From: Conexibacter arvalis | GTDB taxonomy: Bacteria > Actinomycetota > Thermoleophilia > Solirubrobacterales > Solirubrobacteraceae | Length of the DNA stretch: 64,000 nucleotides | Assembly: GCF_014199525.1 (NCBI RefSeq) | Contig: NZ_JACHNU010000001.1 | Span: 846,182 to 910,181 of the forward strand | Direction: 5' to 3' | In this document: piece after piece, positions 32,124 to 42,311 of the stretch | Layout of the letters: every line of letters starts with the position of its first letter | Numbering within the stretch: position 1 is the first letter of the stretch | The notes under the pieces: model-generated | What the model was told of the DNA's origin: nothing | What the model saw: the letters and a program-made list of their open reading frames with translations, nothing else | Database searches by the model: none | Position numbers and translations under genes: made by a program

Positions 32124-32238
32124 TTCACCTCGTCTTCACCGGCAGGTAACGACTCGCCGCCGGCGCGCGGGAAGCATCGACGTCGGTGCGGCCGCATGCC
32201 GCGCCACATCCCTCACCACGATGAATGAAGGAGAGCGC

Positions 32239-34503
32239 GTGACGTCCCTCCGTCCCGCTTCATCGCTCGCCGCCGGCAGGATGCTGCGGCGGGCCCTCTC
32301 GGTCTGCGCCGTCGCGACGGCGCTGCCCGCGGCCGCCCTGGTGCCTGGCACCGCCTTCGCGGCCGACGCCCCGATGCCGGCGATCGAGCGCTACGCCCCG
32401 TCGGCGTTGCCCGACCGCGTCGTCCTGATCCCGACCGACGACCCTGCGCGCAGCCAGCGCGTCAACTGGCGCTCCAACGCCGAGACGCCGAAGGCCCAGA
32501 TCATCGAGGCGCCGGCCGCGTTCGGCGACGTGATGGTCGGCAACAGAGCGGTCGACGGCACCGACTACACGAGAATCGTGACCGTCGAGGCGACGACGAC
32601 CGAGATGGACCCGAAGACCGGGTACAGAAACCGGTACCACATGGTCGAGTTCAGAGACCTGAAGCCGGGCACCCGCTACGCCTACCGCGTCGGCGACGGC
32701 AGCGACCCGACGAGAACCGGCTCGGGCGCCGGCAGCATCAACAACTGGAGCGCGTGGGAGGACTTCACGACCGCCGAGGCCGACCTGGAGCCCTACTCGT
32801 TCATCTACTTCGGCGACGCGCAGAACTACATCGACTCCTCGGTGCCGCGCGTCTTCCACCAGGCGGTGCTCGACCGCCCGGAGGCGAAGCTGATGCTGCA
32901 CGCCGGCGACCTGATGAACCAGACCGGCACCTCCGACTCCTCCCTGCAGGTGCAGGACAAGGAGTGGGGCGAGTGGTTCGCCGCCGCCGGCTACAACAAC
33001 CAGACGCGCAACGTGCTGGCGACGCCGGGCAACCACGAGTACAACAGCTCGACGGCGATCTCGGCCTTCTGGAAGCCGCAGTTCCCGTTCCCGGAGAACG
33101 GCCCCAGAGGCGCCGACGGCAGCGTCATGGAGGCGGTCGAGCGCAGCGCCTACTTCGTCGACTACCAGGGCGTCCGCTTCATCTCGCTCGACTCCAGCCC
33201 GCTCCAGAACGGCCCCGTCCAGCAGGACGTGCTCGAGGCGCAGACGAGATGGTTCGAGGAGGTCCTGAGCGATCCCGAGCGACCGAAGTGGACGGTCGTC
33301 ACCTTCCACCATCCGATCTTCGCCGGCACCAGCTCGCGCAACAACCAGCTCGTGCGCGACAACTGGAACCCGCTGATCCGCAGATACGGCGTCGACCTCG
33401 TCCTGCAGGGGCACGACCACGTCTACAACCGCGGCAACATGGTCGCCGACGACAGCGCCGCCGACCCGGCGAAGTCGCACGGGCCCGTCTACTCGATCTC
33501 GGTCTCCGGCGGCAAGATGTACGCGCTCAACGCCGGCCAGAACTGGACCGCCAACGGCGCCAGACGCCGCGTCTTCGAGCAGAACATCCAGCTCTACCAG
33601 CTGATCGACGTCAAGCAGAACTCGCTGCTGTACCAGGCGCGCCTGGCCAACGGGAAGTTCTTCGACGGCTACCGCGTCGACAAGCCCGGCGACGGCTGGG
33701 ACAACCCGAAGACGGTCACCGACCTCGAGCGAGATCCCGACGCGAGCCCGGTCGCGCCGGGCGAGGCGCGCGGCACGAGAACGACGCTCGGCGCCTCCAA
33801 GCGCCAGATCGGAAGCGGCGAGCAGGTCGTGCTCGAGGCGCGCGTCAGCCGCAGAGCGGTCGGCAGCGTGCAGTTCCACGACGGCGGCGCCGCGCTCGGC
33901 GAGCCGGTCGAGCTGGAGGACGGCGTCGCGACCTTCCGCACCGCGGTGCTCGGCGTCGGCGGCCACGCGCTGACGGCCGCCTTCACGCCGGATGACCCGA
34001 CGAGATTCGCGGCCTCCAGCTCCGCCGGCGTGCTCGTCACCGTCGGCGACGGCTCCGGCGGCGGCGGGCAGGGCCCGAAGGGCGACAAGGGGGACAAGGG
34101 CGACCCGGGCGAGCCCGGCCCGGCCGGTCCCGTCGGCGCCGACGGCAGAGACGGCGCGCCCGGCCCGGCCGGCGCCGCCGGTCCCGCCGGCCCGGCCGGC
34201 CCCGTCGGCCCGAAGGGCGACAAGGGCGACAGAGGCCTCAACGGCCGCGACGCGCTCGTCACCTGCAAGGTGACCGGCTCCGGCTCGGCGCAGAGAGTCA
34301 AGTGCACGGTCACCTACGGCGCCCGCAGCGCTGCGGCGAGAGCGAGAGCGACCGCGAGAGCGCGCCTCCTCAGAAGAGGGCGCACGTACGCGAAGGGCCG
34401 CGTCCGCGCGCTCAAGCCGACGCGCAAGGTCTCGCGCGGCCGCTACACGCTGCGGATCGCGCAGGGCAAGAGAATCGTGACCGCGAAGGTCGCGGTCCGC
34501 TGA
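32239..34503 (+). CDS. secreted purple acid phosphatase-like metallophosphoesterase with collagen-like tail
   Basis: A 754-residue exported enzyme. A signal peptide is followed by an N-terminal fibronectin-III-like purple-acid-phosphatase domain (residues ~50-175), the metallophosphoesterase domain with GDAQNY (~192), GDLMN (~222), GNHEYN (~264), HHPIFAG (~356) and GHDHVYNR (~391), a bacterial Ig-like domain (~510-605), a collagen-like Gly-X-Y stretch (~613-670) and a basic C-terminal domain with a Cys pair. It probably hydrolyses phosphate esters outside the cell. GTG at 32239 follows AAGGAG at ideal spacing and is preferred over ATG 32221. AGA arginine codons are dense in the C-terminus. 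Confidence 0.87.
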   Translation: MTSLRPASSLAAGRMLRRALSVCAVATALPAAALVPGTAFAADAPMPAIERYAPSALPDRVVLIPTDDPARSQRVNWRSNAETPKAQIIEAPAAFGDVMVGNRAVDGTDYTRIVTVEATTTEMDPKTGYRNRYHMVEFRDLKPGTRYAYRVGDGSDPTRTGSGAGSINNWSAWEDFTTAEADLEPYSFIYFGDAQNYIDSSVPRVFHQAVLDRPEAKLMLHAGDLMNQTGTSDSSLQVQDKEWGEWFAAAGYNNQTRNVLATPGNHEYNSSTAISAFWKPQFPFPENGPRGADGSVMEAVERSAYFVDYQGVRFISLDSSPLQNGPVQQDVLEAQTRWFEEVLSDPERPKWTVVTFHHPIFAGTSSRNNQLVRDNWNPLIRRYGVDLVLQGHDHVYNRGNMVADDSAADPAKSHGPVYSISVSGGKMYALNAGQNWTANGARRRVFEQNIQLYQLIDVKQNSLLYQARLANGKFFDGYRVDKPGDGWDNPKTVTDLERDPDASPVAPGEARGTRTTLGASKRQIGSGEQVVLEARVSRRAVGSVQFHDGGAALGEPVELEDGVATFRTAVLGVGGHALTAAFTPDDPTRFAASSSAGVLVTVGDGSGGGGQGPKGDKGDKGDPGEPGPAGPVGADGRDGAPGPAGAAGPAGPAGPVGPKGDKGDRGLNGRDALVTCKVTGSGSAQRVKCTVTYGARSAAARARATARARLLRRGRTYAKGRVRALKPTRKVSRGRYTLRIAQGKRIVTAKVAVR

Positions 34504-34577: not shown

Positions 34578-35369
34578 CTACTTCGACATCGCCTGGTACT
34601 TCCGCACCGCGAGCGGGGCGAAGATCGCGGTCAGCACGAGCGGCCAGACGATCGCCATCTCGATCGCGTGCTGGGCGACCCAGCTGTCGCTCGCCGGGCC
34701 GCCGTTGCCGAACAGCTCGCGCGCGGCGCCGACCGTCGAGGAGAGCGGGTTCCACTCGGCGATCGTCTGCAGCCAGCCGGGCATCTGCGACGGCGAGACG
34801 AAGATCGACGAGATCATCGTGAACGGGAACAGCAGGCCGCTGACGTTGCCGGCCGTCTCGATCGAGCGGATCTGCAGACCGGTCCAGATCCCGATCCACA
34901 GGACCGAGAAGCGCAGCAGCAGGAGCAGCAGCACGGCCAGCAGCGCGTTGACGATCCCGTCGTGCCAGCTCCAGCCGACGACGAGGCCCATCGCGATCAT
35001 CACGACGAAGTTGACGACCGCGTTGATCATCGCCGCGACGCAGCCGCCGCCAAGGATCGCGACGCGCGACATCGGCATCGCGCGCAGCCGATTGGTGATC
35101 CCCCGCTCGGTGTCCATCGCGATGCCGAACAACGTCTCGGTGATGCCGAAGGCGGCCGCCATCACGAACAGGCCGGGCATCAGGTACTCGCGGTAGTCCT
35201 CGCCGCCGGGGACGACGATCGCGCTGCCGAAGACGTAGCCGAACAGCAGGATCGACATCACCGGGAAGGCGAGCGTCCAGGCGATCCGCGACGGCTCGTA
35301 GCGCCAGTGCAGCAGGTCGCGCTTGGTCAGCGTGAGCGTGTCGGAGATCGTCCAGCGCAGCGAGCTCAT
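34578..35369 (-). CDS. ABC-2 permease, DrrB type
   Basis: A 263-residue permease with six hydrophobic segments. The block MDTERGITNRLRAMPMSR is the cytoplasmic coupling motif of the daunorubicin-resistance DrrB/NodJ group, and FPFTMISSIFVSPSQMPGWLQ precedes the last segments. It partners the DrrA-type ATPase encoded upstream with an ATGA overlap. It probably exports a hydrophobic drug or metabolite; the substrate is unknown. Confidence 0.88.
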   Translation of the reverse strand: MSSLRWTISDTLTLTKRDLLHWRYEPSRIAWTLAFPVMSILLFGYVFGSAIVVPGGEDYREYLMPGLFVMAAAFGITETLFGIAMDTERGITNRLRAMPMSRVAILGGGCVAAMINAVVNFVVMIAMGLVVGWSWHDGIVNALLAVLLLLLLRFSVLWIGIWTGLQIRSIETAGNVSGLLFPFTMISSIFVSPSQMPGWLQTIAEWNPLSSTVGAARELFGNGGPASDSWVAQHAIEMAIVWPLVLTAIFAPLAVRKYQAMSK

Positions 35370-36364
35370 GCCGCCACCTCCTCGGCGTCGTCGGGGGTCG
35401 GGTCGGCCTCACCGCCGTCGGCGCGGCTGCCGGTCAGCTGCAGGAAGACGTCGTCGAGCGTCGGCTGGCGCAGCGCGACGTCCTCGACCGCGACGCCGGC
35501 GGCCTGCACCGCCTGCAGCACCTCGGTCAGCGACGCGACGCGGTCGTGGACCGGAGCGCTGACGCTCCGGCGCGAGCGGTCGACGACCGGCTCGGCGTCG
35601 GAGACGCGCGCGAGGATGCCCGCCGCGGCGGTGACGCCGTCGTCGTCGCGCAGCACGAGGTCGACCTGGCTGGCGCCGAGGCGGCGCTTGAGCGCGTCCG
35701 GCGTCCCCTCGGCGATCACGCGGCCGCGGTCGACGACCGAGATCTTGTCGGCGAGCTGGTCGGCCTCGTCGAGGTAGTGGGTCGTCAGCAGCACCGTCGT
35801 CCCGCCGGCGACCAGCTCGCGCACGACCGACCAGACCTCCATCCGGTTGCGCGGGTCCTGGCCGGTCGTCGGCTCGTCGAGGAACAGCACCTGGGGCGCG
35901 GTGATGAAGCTGACGGCGAGGTCGAGCCGCCGCTTCATGCCGCCCGAGTAGCCCTTCGCCTGGCGGTCGCCGGCCTCGGTCAGCCCGAACTGCTCCAGCA
36001 GCTCGGCGGCGCGCCGCTTCGACTCCCGCGGCGAGAGGTGGTGGAGACGCCCGAACAGCTCGAGGTTCTGGCGGCCGCTGAGGATCTCGTCGATCGCGTC
36101 GGTCTGGCCGGTGAGGCCGATCCGCGCGCGCACCTCCGGCGCATGCGCCGCGACGTCGAGGCCCGCGACCTCCGCGCGGCCGCCGTCGGCCCGCAGCAGC
36201 GTCGTGAGGATCGAGACGGCGGTCGTCTTGCCGGCTCCGTTGGGCCCGAGCAGGCCGAGCACGGTGCCGGCCGGCACCTCGAGGTCGAGCCCGTCGAGCG
36301 CGACCTTCTCGCCGAACCGCTTGCGCAGCCCCGCGGCGACGATGGCGGGTCTGCCATCTGTCAC
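35366..36364 (-). CDS. ABC ATPase, DrrA type
   Basis: A 332-residue ATPase of the DrrA family. Walker A is GPNGAGKTTA, the signature is YSGGMKRRLD, Walker B is VLFLDEPTTGQDP (the GQD variant is typical of DrrA) and the H-loop is LLTTHYL. The C-terminal domain ends with the family motif RQPTLDDVFLQLTG. GTG at 36364 is chosen because AAGGGAG lies 10 bases upstream; a longer start would run into the operators. It is divergent from tetR and co-translated with the permease. Confidence 0.9.
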   Translation of the reverse strand: MTDGRPAIVAAGLRKRFGEKVALDGLDLEVPAGTVLGLLGPNGAGKTTAVSILTTLLRADGGRAEVAGLDVAAHAPEVRARIGLTGQTDAIDEILSGRQNLELFGRLHHLSPRESKRRAAELLEQFGLTEAGDRQAKGYSGGMKRRLDLAVSFITAPQVLFLDEPTTGQDPRNRMEVWSVVRELVAGGTTVLLTTHYLDEADQLADKISVVDRGRVIAEGTPDALKRRLGASQVDLVLRDDDGVTAAAGILARVSDAEPVVDRSRRSVSAPVHDRVASLTEVLQAVQAAGVAVEDVALRQPTLDDVFLQLTGSRADGGEADPTPDDAEEVAA

Positions 36365-36391
36365 GGCATCGCTCCCTTCGTGAATTGGGTA

Positions 36392-36423
36392 CAGCGTACG
36401 CTGCATTGCGTACACCATACGCA
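36392..36423. promoter_or_regulatory. two palindromic operators and -10 box between drrAB-type genes and tetR
   Basis: CAGCGTACGCTG (36392-36403) is a perfect 12-bp palindrome. TGCGTA-CACCA-TACGCA (36407-36423) is a second perfect dyad sharing the GCGTA/TACGC half-site. TATACT (36426-36431) is a probable -10 box for tetR, 10 bases before its ATG. The TetR protein probably represses both directions from here. Confidence 0.65.
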
Positions 36424-36441
36424 CTTATACTGCGGCGTGCA

Positions 36442-37194
36442 ATGGCGAGCCGGTCCAGAGACGCGCGAGCTGCCTTCGAGCAGACGATGGAGCTGCTGTG
36501 GGGAGCGAGCCCGCGGCCGGCACGCGGCCCGAAGCCGAGACTGACACGCGAGCGGATCGTCGAGGCGGGGATCGAGATCGCCGACCGCGACGGCCTCGCG
36601 GGCGCCTCGATGCGCGCCGTCGCCGGCGCGCTCGACGTCGGGACGATGTCGCTCTACCGCTACGTGCCGAGCAAGGACGCGCTCGTCGACCTGATGTTCG
36701 ACGCCGTGCTCGCGCGGCAGCCGAAGGCCGACGCGCTGCCCGGCGACTGGCGCGCGAAGCTGGAGGCGCTCGCCCGGCTCGACCTCGCCCTCTACCTGCG
36801 CCACCCGTGGATCCTCGAGGTCTCGATCAACCGCCCCCCGCTCGGCCCCGGCGTGCTCGACACCTACGAGTCCGTGCTGCATGCCGTCGCCGACAGCGGG
36901 CTGCCGATGCGGGAGCTGAACGCCGCCGCCCACGGGCTCGCCGCCTACGTCCGCGGCGCCGCCCAGACGAGGCTGACCCAGCTGCGCGTCGCGCGCGAGA
37001 GCGGGATGAGCGACGAGGAGTGGTGGTCGGAGCGCAACGACTTCTGGGAGCGCTACTTCGATCCCGGCCGCTACCCGACGCTGACCGCGATCTACGCCTC
37101 GGGCGCCTACGACGACCCGCCCGACCCGTTCGACTGGGGCCTGCAGCGGCTGCTCGACGGGATCGCGGCGCGGATCGACGCCACCCGCGAATAG
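36442..37194 (+). CDS. TetR-family regulator of the DrrAB-type exporter
   Basis: A 250-residue TetR protein with the TetR_C/TetR class C-terminal domain. The HTH is ASMRAVAGALDVGTMSLYRYV. A preceding ~40-residue N-terminal arm (TMELLWGASPRPARGPKP) is typical of regulators of DrrAB-like exporters in actinobacteria. It is divergent from the ABC genes over a 77-base gap that holds two dyads. The ligand is probably the exported drug. The -10 box is so near the ATG that the mRNA is likely almost leaderless. Confidence 0.88.
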   Translation: MASRSRDARAAFEQTMELLWGASPRPARGPKPRLTRERIVEAGIEIADRDGLAGASMRAVAGALDVGTMSLYRYVPSKDALVDLMFDAVLARQPKADALPGDWRAKLEALARLDLALYLRHPWILEVSINRPPLGPGVLDTYESVLHAVADSGLPMRELNAAAHGLAAYVRGAAQTRLTQLRVARESGMSDEEWWSERNDFWERYFDPGRYPTLTAIYASGAYDDPPDPFDWGLQRLLDGIAARIDATRE

Positions 37195-37202
37195 CGCGCC
37201 GC

Positions 37203-38822
<1,620 letters not shown>

Positions 38823-38858
38823 ACGGACTCCTTCGGGGCGCGATCTCTACGGGGCGGG

Positions 38859-38933
38859 GCAGGCGCGGGGCCTGCGAGCGGGGTGACAGCCGCGGCGACC
38901 GGTGCGGGACCGGTGCTCGTTCGTGGCGGCTGT
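38859..38933 (-). promoter_or_regulatory. structured leader of the ABC-F gene (possible attenuator)
   Basis: Two hairpins can form in the leader RNA: a long-range 8-bp stem (38886-38893 with 38926-38933) around an ACCGGT direct repeat, and GCAGGC/GCCTGC (38859-38864 with 38870-38875) near the ribosome site. The outer stem's upstream arm touches the stop codon of a five-codon upstream ORF. Confidence 0.4.
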
Positions 38934-38950
38934 TATCGAGATCTGCGCAT
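38933..38950 (-). CDS. possible five-residue leader peptide MRRSR
   Basis: ATG CGC AGA TCT CGA TAA lies in the predicted ABC-F leader, about 19 bases after the expected transcript start. The TAA abuts the arm of the 8-bp stem. It has no clear ribosome site. Antibiotic-responsive ABC-F genes in other bacteria are controlled by such short peptides, so it is recorded as a candidate only. Confidence 0.25.
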   Translation of the reverse strand: MRRSR

Positions 38951-38975
38951 AAGAACGGCTGAAAAGCCGGCGGAG

Positions 38976-39005
38976 ACCGTAGCACGGCTGTTGCGGATGG
39001 CGCAA
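38976..39005 (-). promoter_or_regulatory. probable promoter of the ABC-F gene
   Basis: On the minus strand TTGCGC (39005-39000) and TACGGT (38981-38976) are spaced 18 bases apart. This gives a leader of about 145 bases before the ABC-F start at 38822. Confidence 0.4.
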
Positions 39006-39068
39006 GGGCGCGCGACGAATCGCCGCACCGCGCCGCGCCGCGGAGCCGCGTGTTACAACGGTGCGACG

Positions 39069-39902
39069 ATGACGCGACGCGCCGCCCCGCTGGAGAACAC
39101 GCGCGGCATCCTCGCCCCGGCCTCCGTCGCGACGACCTTCCGGCTCGCCCGCTTCCCGGTGGCGCCCGACCTCGCGCACGCCGTCGAGCGCCACTGGACC
39201 GTCGCCTGGGACCTGCGCGGTCGCGCGCCGTTCACGCAGGAGATCCTCAACCACCCGAACGTCAACCTCTCGATCGAGCCGGAGGGCGCCTTCGTCTGGG
39301 GCGTCGGCACGACCCGCACGCGGCACCGGCTCGACGGTCGCGGCTGGGTGCTGGGGACGAGATTCCGCGCCGGCGGCTTCCGCGCCTTCGCCGGGATCCC
39401 CGTCGCGCGGCTGACCGACCGCGTCGTCCCGCTCGCCGAGCTCTTCGGCGTCGCCGACGCCGCCGCGCTGGAGCGGGCGGTCCGCGCCGGCGAGGGGCCG
39501 GAGGAGCGGATCGCGCTGGTCGAGGCGTTCCTGCGCGAGCGCGACGCGGGGCCCGACCCGCGCGTCGCCGAGGTCGCGGCGATCGTGCGGATGCTGCTCG
39601 ACGACCCGTCGATCACGCGCGTCGACCAGCTCGCGCGCCGCTGCCACCTCTCCGCGCGCACGCTCCAGCGGCTGTTCCACGACTACGTCGGCGTCAGCCC
39701 GAAGTGGGTCGTGCAGCGCCAGCGGCTGCACACCGCGGCCGAGCGGATCGCGGACGAGCCGGGCCTCGACCTCGGCCGCCTCGCGCTCGACCTCGGCTAC
39801 TTCGATCAGGCCCACTTCATCAACGAGTTCAAGGCGGTCGTCGGCCGCCCGCCGGCCGAGTACGCCGCCGCCTGCGCGGCAATCTCGGCGCTGGCGGCGT
39901 AG
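39069..39902 (+). CDS. AraC-family regulator
   Basis: A 277-residue regulator. The N-terminal ~150 residues match the DUF6597-type sensing domain (VERHWTVAWDLRGR, NHPNVNLSIEPEGAFVWG), and the C-terminus has two HTHs (ITRVDQLARRCHLSARTLQRLF and LGRLALDLGYFDQAHFINEF). The usual AraC C-terminal PxxY is VGRPPAEYA. The target is not evident; neighbours are a divergent ABC-F gene and a convergent molybdoenzyme. A longer in-frame start reaching 38883 would cover the ABC-F promoter and is rejected. Confidence 0.85.
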   Translation: MTRRAAPLENTRGILAPASVATTFRLARFPVAPDLAHAVERHWTVAWDLRGRAPFTQEILNHPNVNLSIEPEGAFVWGVGTTRTRHRLDGRGWVLGTRFRAGGFRAFAGIPVARLTDRVVPLAELFGVADAAALERAVRAGEGPEERIALVEAFLRERDAGPDPRVAEVAAIVRMLLDDPSITRVDQLARRCHLSARTLQRLFHDYVGVSPKWVVQRQRLHTAAERIADEPGLDLGRLALDLGYFDQAHFINEFKAVVGRPPAEYAAACAAISALAA

Positions 39903-39918
39903 CCGGCGGGCGCCGCCG

Positions 39919-42181
39919 CTACCCGACCGCCTCGACCCGGGCCGGGACGTGCTTGTGGAGCGGGGTCAGCGCCAGCGGGTCGCGGTGCTCCAAGGCGGTC
40001 AGCTCGTTGAGCGCGACGCCGGTCACGACCGGCGCGCCGTCGTCGTCCGGGTAGTCGACCCCGAGGCCGTTGGGCAGCGAAACGTGGCCGGGCTGCATCG
40101 CCTCGCTGACCTCGACGACCGCCTCGACCGCGCCGCGCGCCGTCGTCACGCGGGCGCGCCCGCCGCTCTCCAGCCCGAGCCGCTCGGCGTCGGCCGGGCT
40201 GACGCGCAGCGCGCCCCGCCCGTCGCGCTTGCGCCATGACGGGTCGCGGATGATCGTGTTCGCCGTCGAGCTGCGGCGCTCGCCGGCCGACAGCACCAGC
40301 GGCAGCTCCTTGGAGGTCCAGCGCGGCGGCTCGGCCGGCAGCGCGCGCAGCTCCTCCAGCAGCTCGGGGATCTCCAGCGCGATCCGCCCGCCCGGCGCTC
40401 TCACGTACCTCCACGCGTCCTCGTAGTCGTCGAGCGTGAAGGTGATCCCGGAGCGGCCGGCGAGCATCGCGTCGAACAGCGCCTCGCCGAGCGCCGGCCC
40501 CTCGCCCGCGTGGCCGGCGCGGCGGACGGCGTCGGGGTAGGTGAGCGCGCAGCGGTGGGCGAGGCCCCACAGCGCCGCGGCGCTCGCGGCGCCGTCGGGC
40601 AGCGTCGGCCCGAGCGTCTCGTACAGCGCCCACGGCGCCAGCGCGGCCAGCCGCGGGTCGGCGCCGGCGGCGGTCAGGAAGGCGGTCGCGAACTGCGGCC
40701 GGCCCTCGCGCGCGGCGGCCCGCAGCGGCTCCAGCGCGGCGTCGGGCAGCGGCGCCAGCGCGCGCACGATGCGGGCGTGGATCTCCGGCTCGGGCAGCGT
40801 CCCCGGCAGCGGCTCCAGCAGCGGGGCGCGCAGGTGGAAGGTGTTGCGCGGGAACTCGAGGTTGAAGAAGGTCGCCTCCCACTTCTCGAACTGGCTGGCG
40901 GCCGGCAGCACGTAGTCGGCGCAGCGGGCGGTCTCCGTCATCGCGACGTCGATCACGACGACGGTGTCGAGCGCCGCGAGCGCCTCCCGCCAGCGGGCCG
41001 AGTCGGCGAGCGAGTGGGCCGGGTTGGCGCTCTCGACCAGCATCGCGCGCAGCCGCCGCGGGTGGTCGGTGAGGATCTCGCCGGGGATCGCGTTGCACGG
41101 CACCATCCCGCCAAGGATCGGCGCGCCGGTCACGGGCGTGCGCGGCACGTCGACCTTGTAGCGCGCGAGCGGCGCCATCCACGAGTGGAGGTGCATCGCG
41201 CCCCGGCTTGCCGAAGCTGCCGCGCAGCAGCCAGATCAGCTTGTCGAGGTACGAGCAGAGGACCGAGTTGGGCGCCTGCTGGATGCCGAGGTCCTCGAAG
41301 GTCGCGACCGACTCGGCGGCGCCGATCCGGCGCGCGGCCGCCTCCAGCTCCGCGAGCGGCACGCCGCACGCCTCCGCGCAGGCGCCGATCGGCACCGCGC
41401 GCAGCGCCGCCAGCACGGCCTCCGAGCCGGTCGTGTGCGCGGCGAGGAAGGCGTCGTCGACGCGGCCGTCGCGCACGAGCAGCCCGAGCAGCGCGGCGAG
41501 GCACCAGGCGTCGGTGCCCGGGCGGACCTGGAGGTGGTGGTCGGCCAGTCTGGCGGTCTCCGTCGCGACCGGGTCGATCACGATCAGCGCGCGCTGCGGA
41601 TCGGCGGCGATCTCCTTCAGGACGACGCGGGCGCGCGGGAACGACTGCGACTGCCACGGGTTCTTGCCGAGGAAGAGCGCGACCTCGGCATGCTCGAAGT
41701 CGCCGCGCGTGTGGCCGCCGTAGAGGTGGGCGTCGACGAAGCCCTCGCCCATCTTCTCCTGCGCCAGCGCGCTCGAGCGGTATCTCGCCCCGAGCGCCGC
41801 CATCACCGCGCGGGCGTAGGCGCCGCCGAGGTGGTTGCCCTGCCCGCCGCCGCCGTAGTAGAAGATCGTCTCGCCGCCGTGCTGGTCGCGGACGGCCGCC
41901 AGCCGCGCCGCGACCTCGGCGATCGCCGTCTCCCAGTCGATCTGCTCGAAGCCGCCGTCGGGCCGGCGCCGCAGCGGGCTCGTCAGCCGGTCGCGGCCGT
42001 TCTGGTAGTGGTCGAGCCGCAGCGCCTTGTTGCAGGTGTAACCCTGCGAGGCGGGGTGGGCGCGGTCGCCGCGGATGCGCGCGAGGCGGCGGCCGTCGAG
42101 CTCCACCTCGATCCCGCAGTTGCACTCGCAGAGGATGCACGCGCTCTGCCGCCAGGTCCGCTCCTGCTGCGCTTCGGCCAT
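39919..42181 (-). pseudogene. molybdopterin-dependent oxidoreductase, interrupted by one-base frameshift
   Basis: Together the two reading frames encode a ~753-residue bis-MGD enzyme. The N-terminal part (42181 to ~41205) has the 4Fe-4S motif CILCECNC plus GYTCNKA and GNHLGGAYAR; it runs to LLRGSFGKPG and then continues only in the next frame as MHLHSWMAPL (~41196 to 39919), which holds ESANPAHSLAD, the FEKWEATFFNLEFP block and the molybdopterin-binding C-terminal barrel. The shift lies in the run CCCC at 41201-41204: removing one C restores the join. It could be a sequencing error or a recent mutation. The substrate is unknown (formate dehydrogenase/nitrate reductase superfamily). It is divergent from an LmrA-type tetR, with two operators between. 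Confidence 0.8.
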
Positions 42182-42217
42182 CGCTCCACCCTCCGCTCGC
42201 GCGCGTCTCGCGCGAAA

Positions 42218-42266
42218 TAGGACGCCTGTCTTAGTGCTTGCCGACCCTACTAGGATGGGTGTCCTA
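42218..42266. promoter_or_regulatory. two matched 16-bp operators between molybdoenzyme and tetR
   Basis: TAGGACGCCTGTCTTA (42218-42233) and TAGGATGGGTGTCCTA (42251-42266) share the outline TAGGA-N6-TC(C/T)TA and start exactly 33 bases apart, three helical turns. They lie in the divergent promoter region and are the likely binding sites of the LmrA-type TetR at 42312. Confidence 0.65.
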
Positions 42267-42311
42267 GTCAAGCGGGTTCTCCCGCGTCCACGGAGCGGAG
42301 CAGGTCCTCAG

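Follow-up and report, generated by a model that had tools for sequence, protein, structure and literature searches.

The ABC-F ATPase gene on a 64,000-nucleotide (nt) stretch of the Conexibacter arvalis genome (contig NZ_JACHNU010000001.1, positions 846,182 to 910,181; hereafter the window) raises the question of how its expression is controlled. The DNA at 38823-39068 is intergenic and common to the ABC-F gene and an AraC-type gene, because the latter starts at 39069 on the opposite strand. The original prediction for this DNA was a possible leader-peptide attenuation of the ABC-F gene. Comparison with relatives largely upholds this idea, in the form of attenuation dependent on a short upstream open reading frame (uORF, or mini-ORF), and makes peptide-specific stalling unlikely, as the peptides differ. 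The leader is probably a ribosome-sensing switch that works by uORF-dependent, mainly translational attenuation. Its elements in the window are the following, P1 to P3 being paired elements.

39000..39005, minus strand: -35-like TTGCGC, with an 18-nt spacer to the -10; the same TTGCGC and spacer occur in three relatives (L003, L004, L005)
38976..38981, minus strand: -10 TACGGT, of a form (TAnnnT) kept in relatives
38956..38969, minus strand: P1 hairpin CGGCTTTTCAGCCG, at the predicted RNA 5' end, from the minimum-energy fold
38933..38950, minus strand: mini-ORF MRRSR* (ATG CGC AGA TCT CGA TAA), at the same position in relatives
38938..38948, minus strand: P2 5' strand, uORF bases GCGC-A-GATCTC, from the minimum-energy fold and the permutation tests of uORF against ribosome-binding site (RBS)
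38926..38933, minus strand: P3 5' arm ACAGCCGC, of an 8-bp stem
38898..38914, minus strand: P3 inner hairpin ACCGGT/ACCGGT, from the fold; the corresponding helix has compensatory changes in the alignment
38886..38893, minus strand: P3 3' arm GCGGCTGT, pairing with the P3 5' arm over 8 bp
38859..38875, minus strand: local hairpin GCAGGC/GCCTGC
38838..38847, minus strand: P2 3' strand GAGATCGCGC, 4 nt upstream of the Shine-Dalgarno (SD) sequence, from the fold and the permutation tests
38828..38833, minus strand: SD AAGGAG of the ABC-F gene
37203..38822, minus strand: ABC-F ATPase gene, 539 amino acids, two ABC domains

The promoter-like pair expected at 38976-39005 is present as TTGCGC/TACGGT, and a strict sigma-70 scan of 36500-40500 gave 0 sites. 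With transcription starting near 38969, the predicted leader would be ~147 nt long, close to the ~145 bases first proposed. The five-codon ORF is in place and conserved, and so is its contact with the 8-bp stem, the last A of the stop codon being the first base of P3. A second hairpin near the RBS had also been proposed; it exists (38875-38859), and it was rejected as a conserved part, no counterpart being seen by eye in ortholog leaders. What matters instead is a long-range helix with the mini-ORF: in the minimum-energy fold, P2 joins the mini-ORF by ten pairs to 38847-38838, shortly upstream of the SD. No Rfam 15 family covers the element: among its covariance models, the sole match to 38600-39200 up to E 1 had an E of 0.98 and lay on the other strand.

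Orthologs were searched for by protein in 61 genomes, 249 genomes of the class Thermoleophilia and 146 of the family. Two groups carry the comparison: f1, the clade of the window's ABC-F protein (members 53-81% identical to it), and f7, a second family of the class (44-50%). All 18 readable f1 orthologs (L002-L012, L112, L113, L131-L134 and L136; L002 is the window itself) have the same order of -10, hairpin, ATG, 3-5-codon ORF, second stem and RBS, and two more leaders (L155, L162) added through the RNA model described below bring f1 to n=20. L114, L135 and L205 run into contig ends and are not counted (L205, of f10, has only 41 nt). All 13 f7 orthologs (13/13) have the hairpin and a mini-ORF, which mostly reads ATG ACG GAC followed by TGA or TAA (MTD*). 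Of 34 leaders, 32 have a TAnnnT motif 24-29 nt upstream of the mini-ORF start codon, the exceptions being L012 and L133. An ORF of 3-5 codons, Met included, is found in all 47 leaders (20 f1, 27 f7); for comparison, an ORF of 2-6 codons begins at 23 (7%) of 329 control ATGs taken from the DNA around them. The encoded peptides vary (MRRSR, MRFFD, MGDLN, MTD, MRA), with Arg as the second residue in 19/20 f1 mini-ORFs and Thr (15/27) or Arg (12/27) in f7. Upstream neighbour genes are unrelated in 141/153 pairs of f1 loci with the leader retained, and a similar ORF upstream of the promoter occurs in just 12/153 pairs, 9 of them inside genus g20. A conserved short uORF thus lies between the promoter and the ABC-F gene.

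Pairing was assessed in an alignment (A3) of 12 of the 18 f1 leaders, picked for similar length; two further alignments (A4, with all 18, and A5) aligned the variable part badly and did not enter the counts. In A3, 88.6% of P1 and P3 cells are paired versus 83.4% in shuffled alignments (0/500), slid registers of the stems giving 31-52%. The covariation score is 0.155 versus 0.085 in shuffles (0/500), and four pairs changed on both sides versus 1.7 (14/500). P1 columns are 90% paired, with both-sided changes in 2/5 pairs, and RNAalifold reports compensatory changes in 10/20 pairs and adds the inner P3 helix, which has many such changes. The original prediction had been made to depend on conservation of the small ORF and stems and on their covariation in relatives: the relatives keep the ORF, the 5' hairpin and the stem after the stop codon, with covariation within the stems in f1 and between the mini-ORF and the RBS region.

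This last relation is brought out by permutation tests in which the RNA duplex energy of each mini-ORF with its own RBS region was compared with that obtained using the RBS regions of other species (20,000 permutations; the near copies L235 and L238 were left out of some tests). In f1, the native energy is -12.26 versus -9.31 kcal/mol permuted (p 5e-5, n=20), and the post-stop arm with the mid-leader, i.e., P3, also gives p 5e-5. In f7 (n=13), p is 3.5e-4 and 5.5e-4, and 0.025 for the post-stop part alone. Controls (P1 with the RBS, mini-ORF with the coding start) give p 0.08, 0.37, 0.97 and 0.17. The first runs (n=18 and n=9) had given 5e-5 for f1 and weaker values for f7 (0.04, 0.006, 0.08). 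Fourteen f7 leaders found later by the second RNA model, and so collected after the pairing idea was formed, give -22.94 versus -17.30 kcal/mol (p 5e-5), with 14/14 beating the median swap and controls for 12 of them at p 0.44 and 0.55. With one leader per genus in 40 draws, the median p is 0.0008 (largest 0.0082) for the 8 f1 genera, and both the median and the largest are 0.0002 for the 14 f7 genera, control medians being 0.37-0.81. Individual leaders illustrate the exchange: GGTGACCTGAAC pairs with GTTCAGTCACC in L131, ATGCGC with GCGCAT in L004, and ATGCGT with ACGCAT at the main start codon in L223, and in L118 GACGGA/TCCGTC and CTGACCG/CGGTCAG flank the SD on both sides. The pairing of the mini-ORF is conserved; its peptide sequence is not.

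The effect of a ribosome on the mini-ORF was modelled by keeping the RNA unpaired between 5 nt upstream of the mini-ORF start codon and 15 nt past the first base of that codon. In f7, this block lowers the modelled RBS opening cost by 5.24 kcal/mol (n=25; control blocks, 0.95) and outdoes every control block in 18/22 leaders. In f1, the drop is 2.18 kcal/mol (n=20; control blocks, 0.53). The lock appears direct in f7 and less direct in f1, because P2 covers or brackets the SD in f7 and ends before it in f1. A structure that would couple uORF occupancy to the RBS is thus found, weak in the window itself.

These results suggest the following course of events. The RNA would start at or just before P1, and the SD-less ORF of 3-5 codons directly behind this hairpin would be translated. 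With no ribosome on the mini-ORF, its bases would pair at the main SD (f7) or just before it (f1, the window), forming P2, which in f1 would sit on top of P3, the stem beginning at the ORF stop; ABC-F translation would then be low. A drug that blocks initiation or the first peptide bonds would make the ribosome linger on the mini-ORF and cover its P2 strand, the RBS would be freed, and the ABC-F protein would be made. This protein, which presumably protects ribosomes, would clear the drug, and the switch would close again.

By analogy with CplR, VmlR and Are5sc, the inducers would be drugs of the lincosamide, streptogramin A and pleuromutilin (LSAP) types, which halt ribosomes on the start codon or directly behind it. 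In the excerpts of the papers on which the account of published systems is based here, these three classes are the reported inducers of cplR, vmlR and are5sc, and they are described as arresting the ribosome during initiation or right after it, largely irrespective of context (PMC10201436, PMC9226507, PMC12421871); such stalling fits a leader that keeps its pairing and not its peptide. Because the peptide is not conserved, peptide-specific stalling of the macrolide type seems unlikely, and inhibitors of the start codon or early elongation are the better guess. Peptide-specific (macrolide) stalling and amino-acid attenuation were both rejected as the main idea, the peptides being different.

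Several observations weigh against a uORF-dependent translational switch, or against parts of it. In the window alone, the fold energy is within chance (z -1.45, 18/200 shuffles being equally stable) and the mini-ORF with the RBS region gives p 0.12; as this fold energy by itself is unremarkable, the case must rest on the relatives. Blocking the uORF lowers the RBS opening cost only slightly in the window (7.4 to 6.7 kcal/mol), with little predicted effect also in the leader of the Cfr-type gene described below (4.5 to 3.6), and in f1 it outdoes every control block in just 8/20 leaders, P2 there ending a few bases before the SD, beside and not over it. In five leaders of genus g20 (L010, L112, L113, L132, L134), the uORF-RBS duplex is within shuffles (z -0.01 to 1.24). 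The count of further pair types in A3 likewise stays within shuffles (109/500), and P1 in f7 is conserved without covarying (92.3% versus 90.5% paired, 79/500). Pairing of the SD with the spacer between P1 and the ATG (UUCUU:AAGGA), present in the window fold with 38955-38951, is unsupported by relatives and was rejected as a general feature (p 0.66 in f1, 0.29 in f7). No SD precedes the uORF in the leaders inspected by eye, P1 filling that place; an SD-like AGGG of some leaders sits inside P1. A uORF variant MRK of vmlR was less effective, so that codons may matter (PMC9226507). The ABC-F product falls under the curated cut-off of every resistance model listed, and in a single-sequence search of solved PDB chains EttA and YheS take the top ranks.

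The same leader could act on transcription, with the ribosome on the mini-ORF deciding termination at a U-less or Rho-dependent terminator. Such control is how most described ABC-F leaders act according to the excerpts, and P3 of f1 is a strong GC-rich stem at the ORF stop, yet it is the RBS region with which the mini-ORF covaries, and this speaks for translation. Terminator-like sites occur in 5/48 leaders, four of them being P1 upstream of the mini-ORF and one (L235) a stem containing the SD, and no intrinsic terminator was found in the window leader. A terminator switch fits less well than translational control, since a search for terminator-like sites, which did not extend to U-less or Rho-dependent termination, found none from the mini-ORF to the RBS in 47/48 leaders. 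Transcription attenuation is accordingly rather unlikely.

It is improbable that the leader senses translation stress or amino acids in general, the ribosome being held by starvation or an initiation defect and not by a drug. One uORF can respond to several drugs that target the ribosome, and that of whiB7 answers to starvation as well (PMC12121999). The frequent second-codon Arg of f1 is in keeping with such a sensor, as are the codons AGA and CGA of the window mini-ORF, which are likely rare in a GC-rich genome. However, L131 (MGDLN) and 15/27 f7 mini-ORFs (MT...) have another residue in place of Arg and keep the pairing, and the genes behind the leader are those of ABC-F proteins and, once, a Cfr-type enzyme. 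A fixed RNA structure, i.e., a 5' stabiliser and leader with a chance mini-ORF and no switch, has very little probability: a simple hairpin, P1, does stand where the RNA presumably begins, and 5'-end hairpins stabilise mRNAs, but neither the presence of the short ORF in every leader against 7% of control ATGs nor the coordinated change of mini-ORF and RBS would be expected from it.

Returning to the uORF-dependent switch, its distribution was followed with two covariance models, R1, built from A3, and R2, which holds only the f7 hairpin and mini-ORF (47 positions). In the window genome, R1 finds one place, the window leader at 78 bits, the next best scoring 14.6. In the 146 family genomes, it finds 33 places in 32 genomes at E 0.01; 30 of these, and 30 of 38 R2 places, were examined for context. 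At E up to 3.3e-4 there are 23 R1 places, 19 of them before an ABC-F gene (12 being the model's own sequences), one before a Cfr-type gene, one before a polysaccharide-deacetylase gene and two chance-like. L160 and L161 (E 2.7e-5) were taken as chance, as were seven places (L163-L169) at E 0.001-0.01. The family scan missed the G034 leader (L012), though R1 matches it directly at 28.7 bits. Among 396 genomes of the phylum (E up to 1e-4, stricter filters), R1 finds family f1 only, in 3 genomes. R2 matches 38 of 103 genomes at E 0.001; the 30 places examined comprise 13 own sequences and 17 new ones, of which 14 lie before ABC-F genes, one (L221) ends with its contig and two do not precede ABC-F. 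Two R2 places were taken as chance: L231 lies within a different ORF, and the ORF that follows L232 looks helicase-like by eye. In a scan of named genomes, the matches listed were generic ABC-Fs of 26-38% identity. Two of these, from Actinomadura (L033) and Streptomyces (L058), have a different short uORF, MASPRIS*/MSTPRIS*, with a PRIS ending shared by eye; it lies within ~120 nt upstream of the ABC-F gene and is apparently leaderless.

Two places show the leader before other genes.

G018:C1:113979-114080 and 113081-113830: leader (L149) and Cfr-type gene (L170)
G215:C115:10275-10374: leader without its ABC-F gene (L151 / L171)

In G018 (E 2e-13), the same leader precedes a gene for a Cfr-type radical-SAM 23S rRNA methyltransferase. 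Its product scores 284.3 bits with TIGR04432 (Cfr) versus 163.3 with RlmN and is thus closer to Cfr, the RlmN of the same genome scoring 266.3 and 324.4 bits, respectively; the nearest solved chain is also Cfr. The score is below the curated cut-off of 550 bits, and only ~250 positions match. As the C-terminal part reads in another frame, the gene may be decayed or misassembled. No other genome among the 146 of the family has a Cfr-type gene at E 1e-50. In G215 (E 1.6e-12), the leader stands before a polysaccharide-deacetylase gene (PF01522). An ABC-F ortholog was not found in G215 at E 1e-100, and the gene after the deacetylase encodes a short-chain dehydrogenase/reductase 75% identical to that behind ABC-F in G025; the leader therefore seems to have stayed intact while the ABC-F gene behind it was exchanged for another.

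The leader is absent in 12 orthologs of 44-47% identity, six from the f1 genera g13 and g17 and six from f5, and also in L208 of f10. These 12 form a sister clade (L013, L014, L115-L117, L119, L120, L123, L125 and L137-L139; L117 with 95 nt upstream only) in which start codons lie near a -10-like sequence, so that the genes look leaderless; a change to constitutive expression may have occurred there. In a maximum-likelihood tree of 43 proteins (27 with the leader, 12 without, 4 outgroup), the leader label switches once, with support 98/94, and the 12 leader-free proteins nest beside f7. This reads as one loss from a leader-bearing ancestor, although the direction is uncertain because the tree is midpoint-rooted and the outgroup rows are long branches. 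The chances are about even that the leader represents a new RNA family of Conexibacter and its relatives, in which a 5' hairpin replaces the SD and is followed by a 3-5-codon ORF that is itself the partner strand of the RBS, so that sensor, ORF and lock share ~20 nt, and which is ancestral to the ABC-F clade and portable to a Cfr-type gene.

Described systems offer close parallels. The cplR leader of Clostridia has a uORF MR[I/M] and an anti-SD and acts by transcriptional and translational attenuation; it resembles the window-type leader in its very short uORF with Arg as the second residue, its SD-sequestering structure and its ABC-F target (PMC10201436). It differs in being 212 nt long, in having an intrinsic terminator by which the SD is hidden as well, and in carrying its uORF within a 5' hairpin (PMC10201436), whereas in window-type leaders no terminator was seen, the uORF follows directly behind the 5' hairpin and the uORF bases pair with the RBS region. 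The vmlR leader of Bacillus, with the uORF MIN, also combines transcription and translation attenuation; it shares the three-codon uORF, in which swaps to MDN or MDK keep function, and is induced by lincomycin (PMC9226507). Its four stem-loops, with the terminator SL-3 and with SL-4 partly hiding the SD, and its uORF SD are not seen in window-type leaders. The actinobacterial ABC-F genes are5sc (uORF MLV, predicted MRS) and tiaA (MVGDDDISG) of Streptomyces coelicolor likewise have short uORFs, with LSAP drugs stalling at the start codon; they have a predicted terminator/antiterminator, and a hairpin-start layout is not described in the excerpts of PMC12421871. The toiL uORF of E. coli topAI is similar in its translational control by ribosome stalling, but differs in target gene and phylum and has an SD (PMC12121999). 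The present leader thus has good comparative support and appears new as a hairpin-started leader without a terminator, of a kind known from CplR and VmlR. No paper was found on Thermoleophilia ABC-F, Solirubrobacter leader-peptide attenuation or Conexibacter uORF resistance in a search that left out subscription papers and preprints.

The leader suggests that environmental actinobacteria, which are not among the producers and pathogens studied so far, have long had inducible control of their ribosome-protection genes, and it would represent a very small design for sensing ribosome-targeting drugs. The conservation of pairing and not of peptide offers a direct test of initiation at SD-less mini-ORFs behind 5' hairpins. 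The leader would also predict which ABC-F and Cfr-type genes in these little-studied bacteria are drug-inducible, and offers a handle for guessing ABC-F resistance function.

Domain models find two ABC domains in the 539-amino-acid product, as in one ABC-F-type protein. The best NCBIfam model is NF000355 'ribosomal protection-like ABC-F' (328.6 bits, cut-off 380); NF000171 (TlrC/CarA/OleB/SrmB) gives 243.9 bits (cut-off 800) and the EttA model 220.6 bits, below the NF000355 score. Next to the ABC-F gene, the DNA at 34578-37194 is a drug-export-like neighbourhood, in which a TetR-type regulator gene (36385-37194, plus strand) adjoins an ABC exporter pair (35366-36424 and 34578-35369, minus strand) that includes a DrrA-like ATPase. 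Farther away, a molybdopterin oxidoreductase gene (39806-42271, minus strand) is apparently split over two frames near 41190, with the N-terminal Pfam domains in one frame and the C-terminal ones in the other, by decay or sequencing error. At 32221-34503 (plus strand), a purple-acid-phosphatase-like metallophosphoesterase has a collagen-like repeat stretch (PF01391) near its C-terminus.
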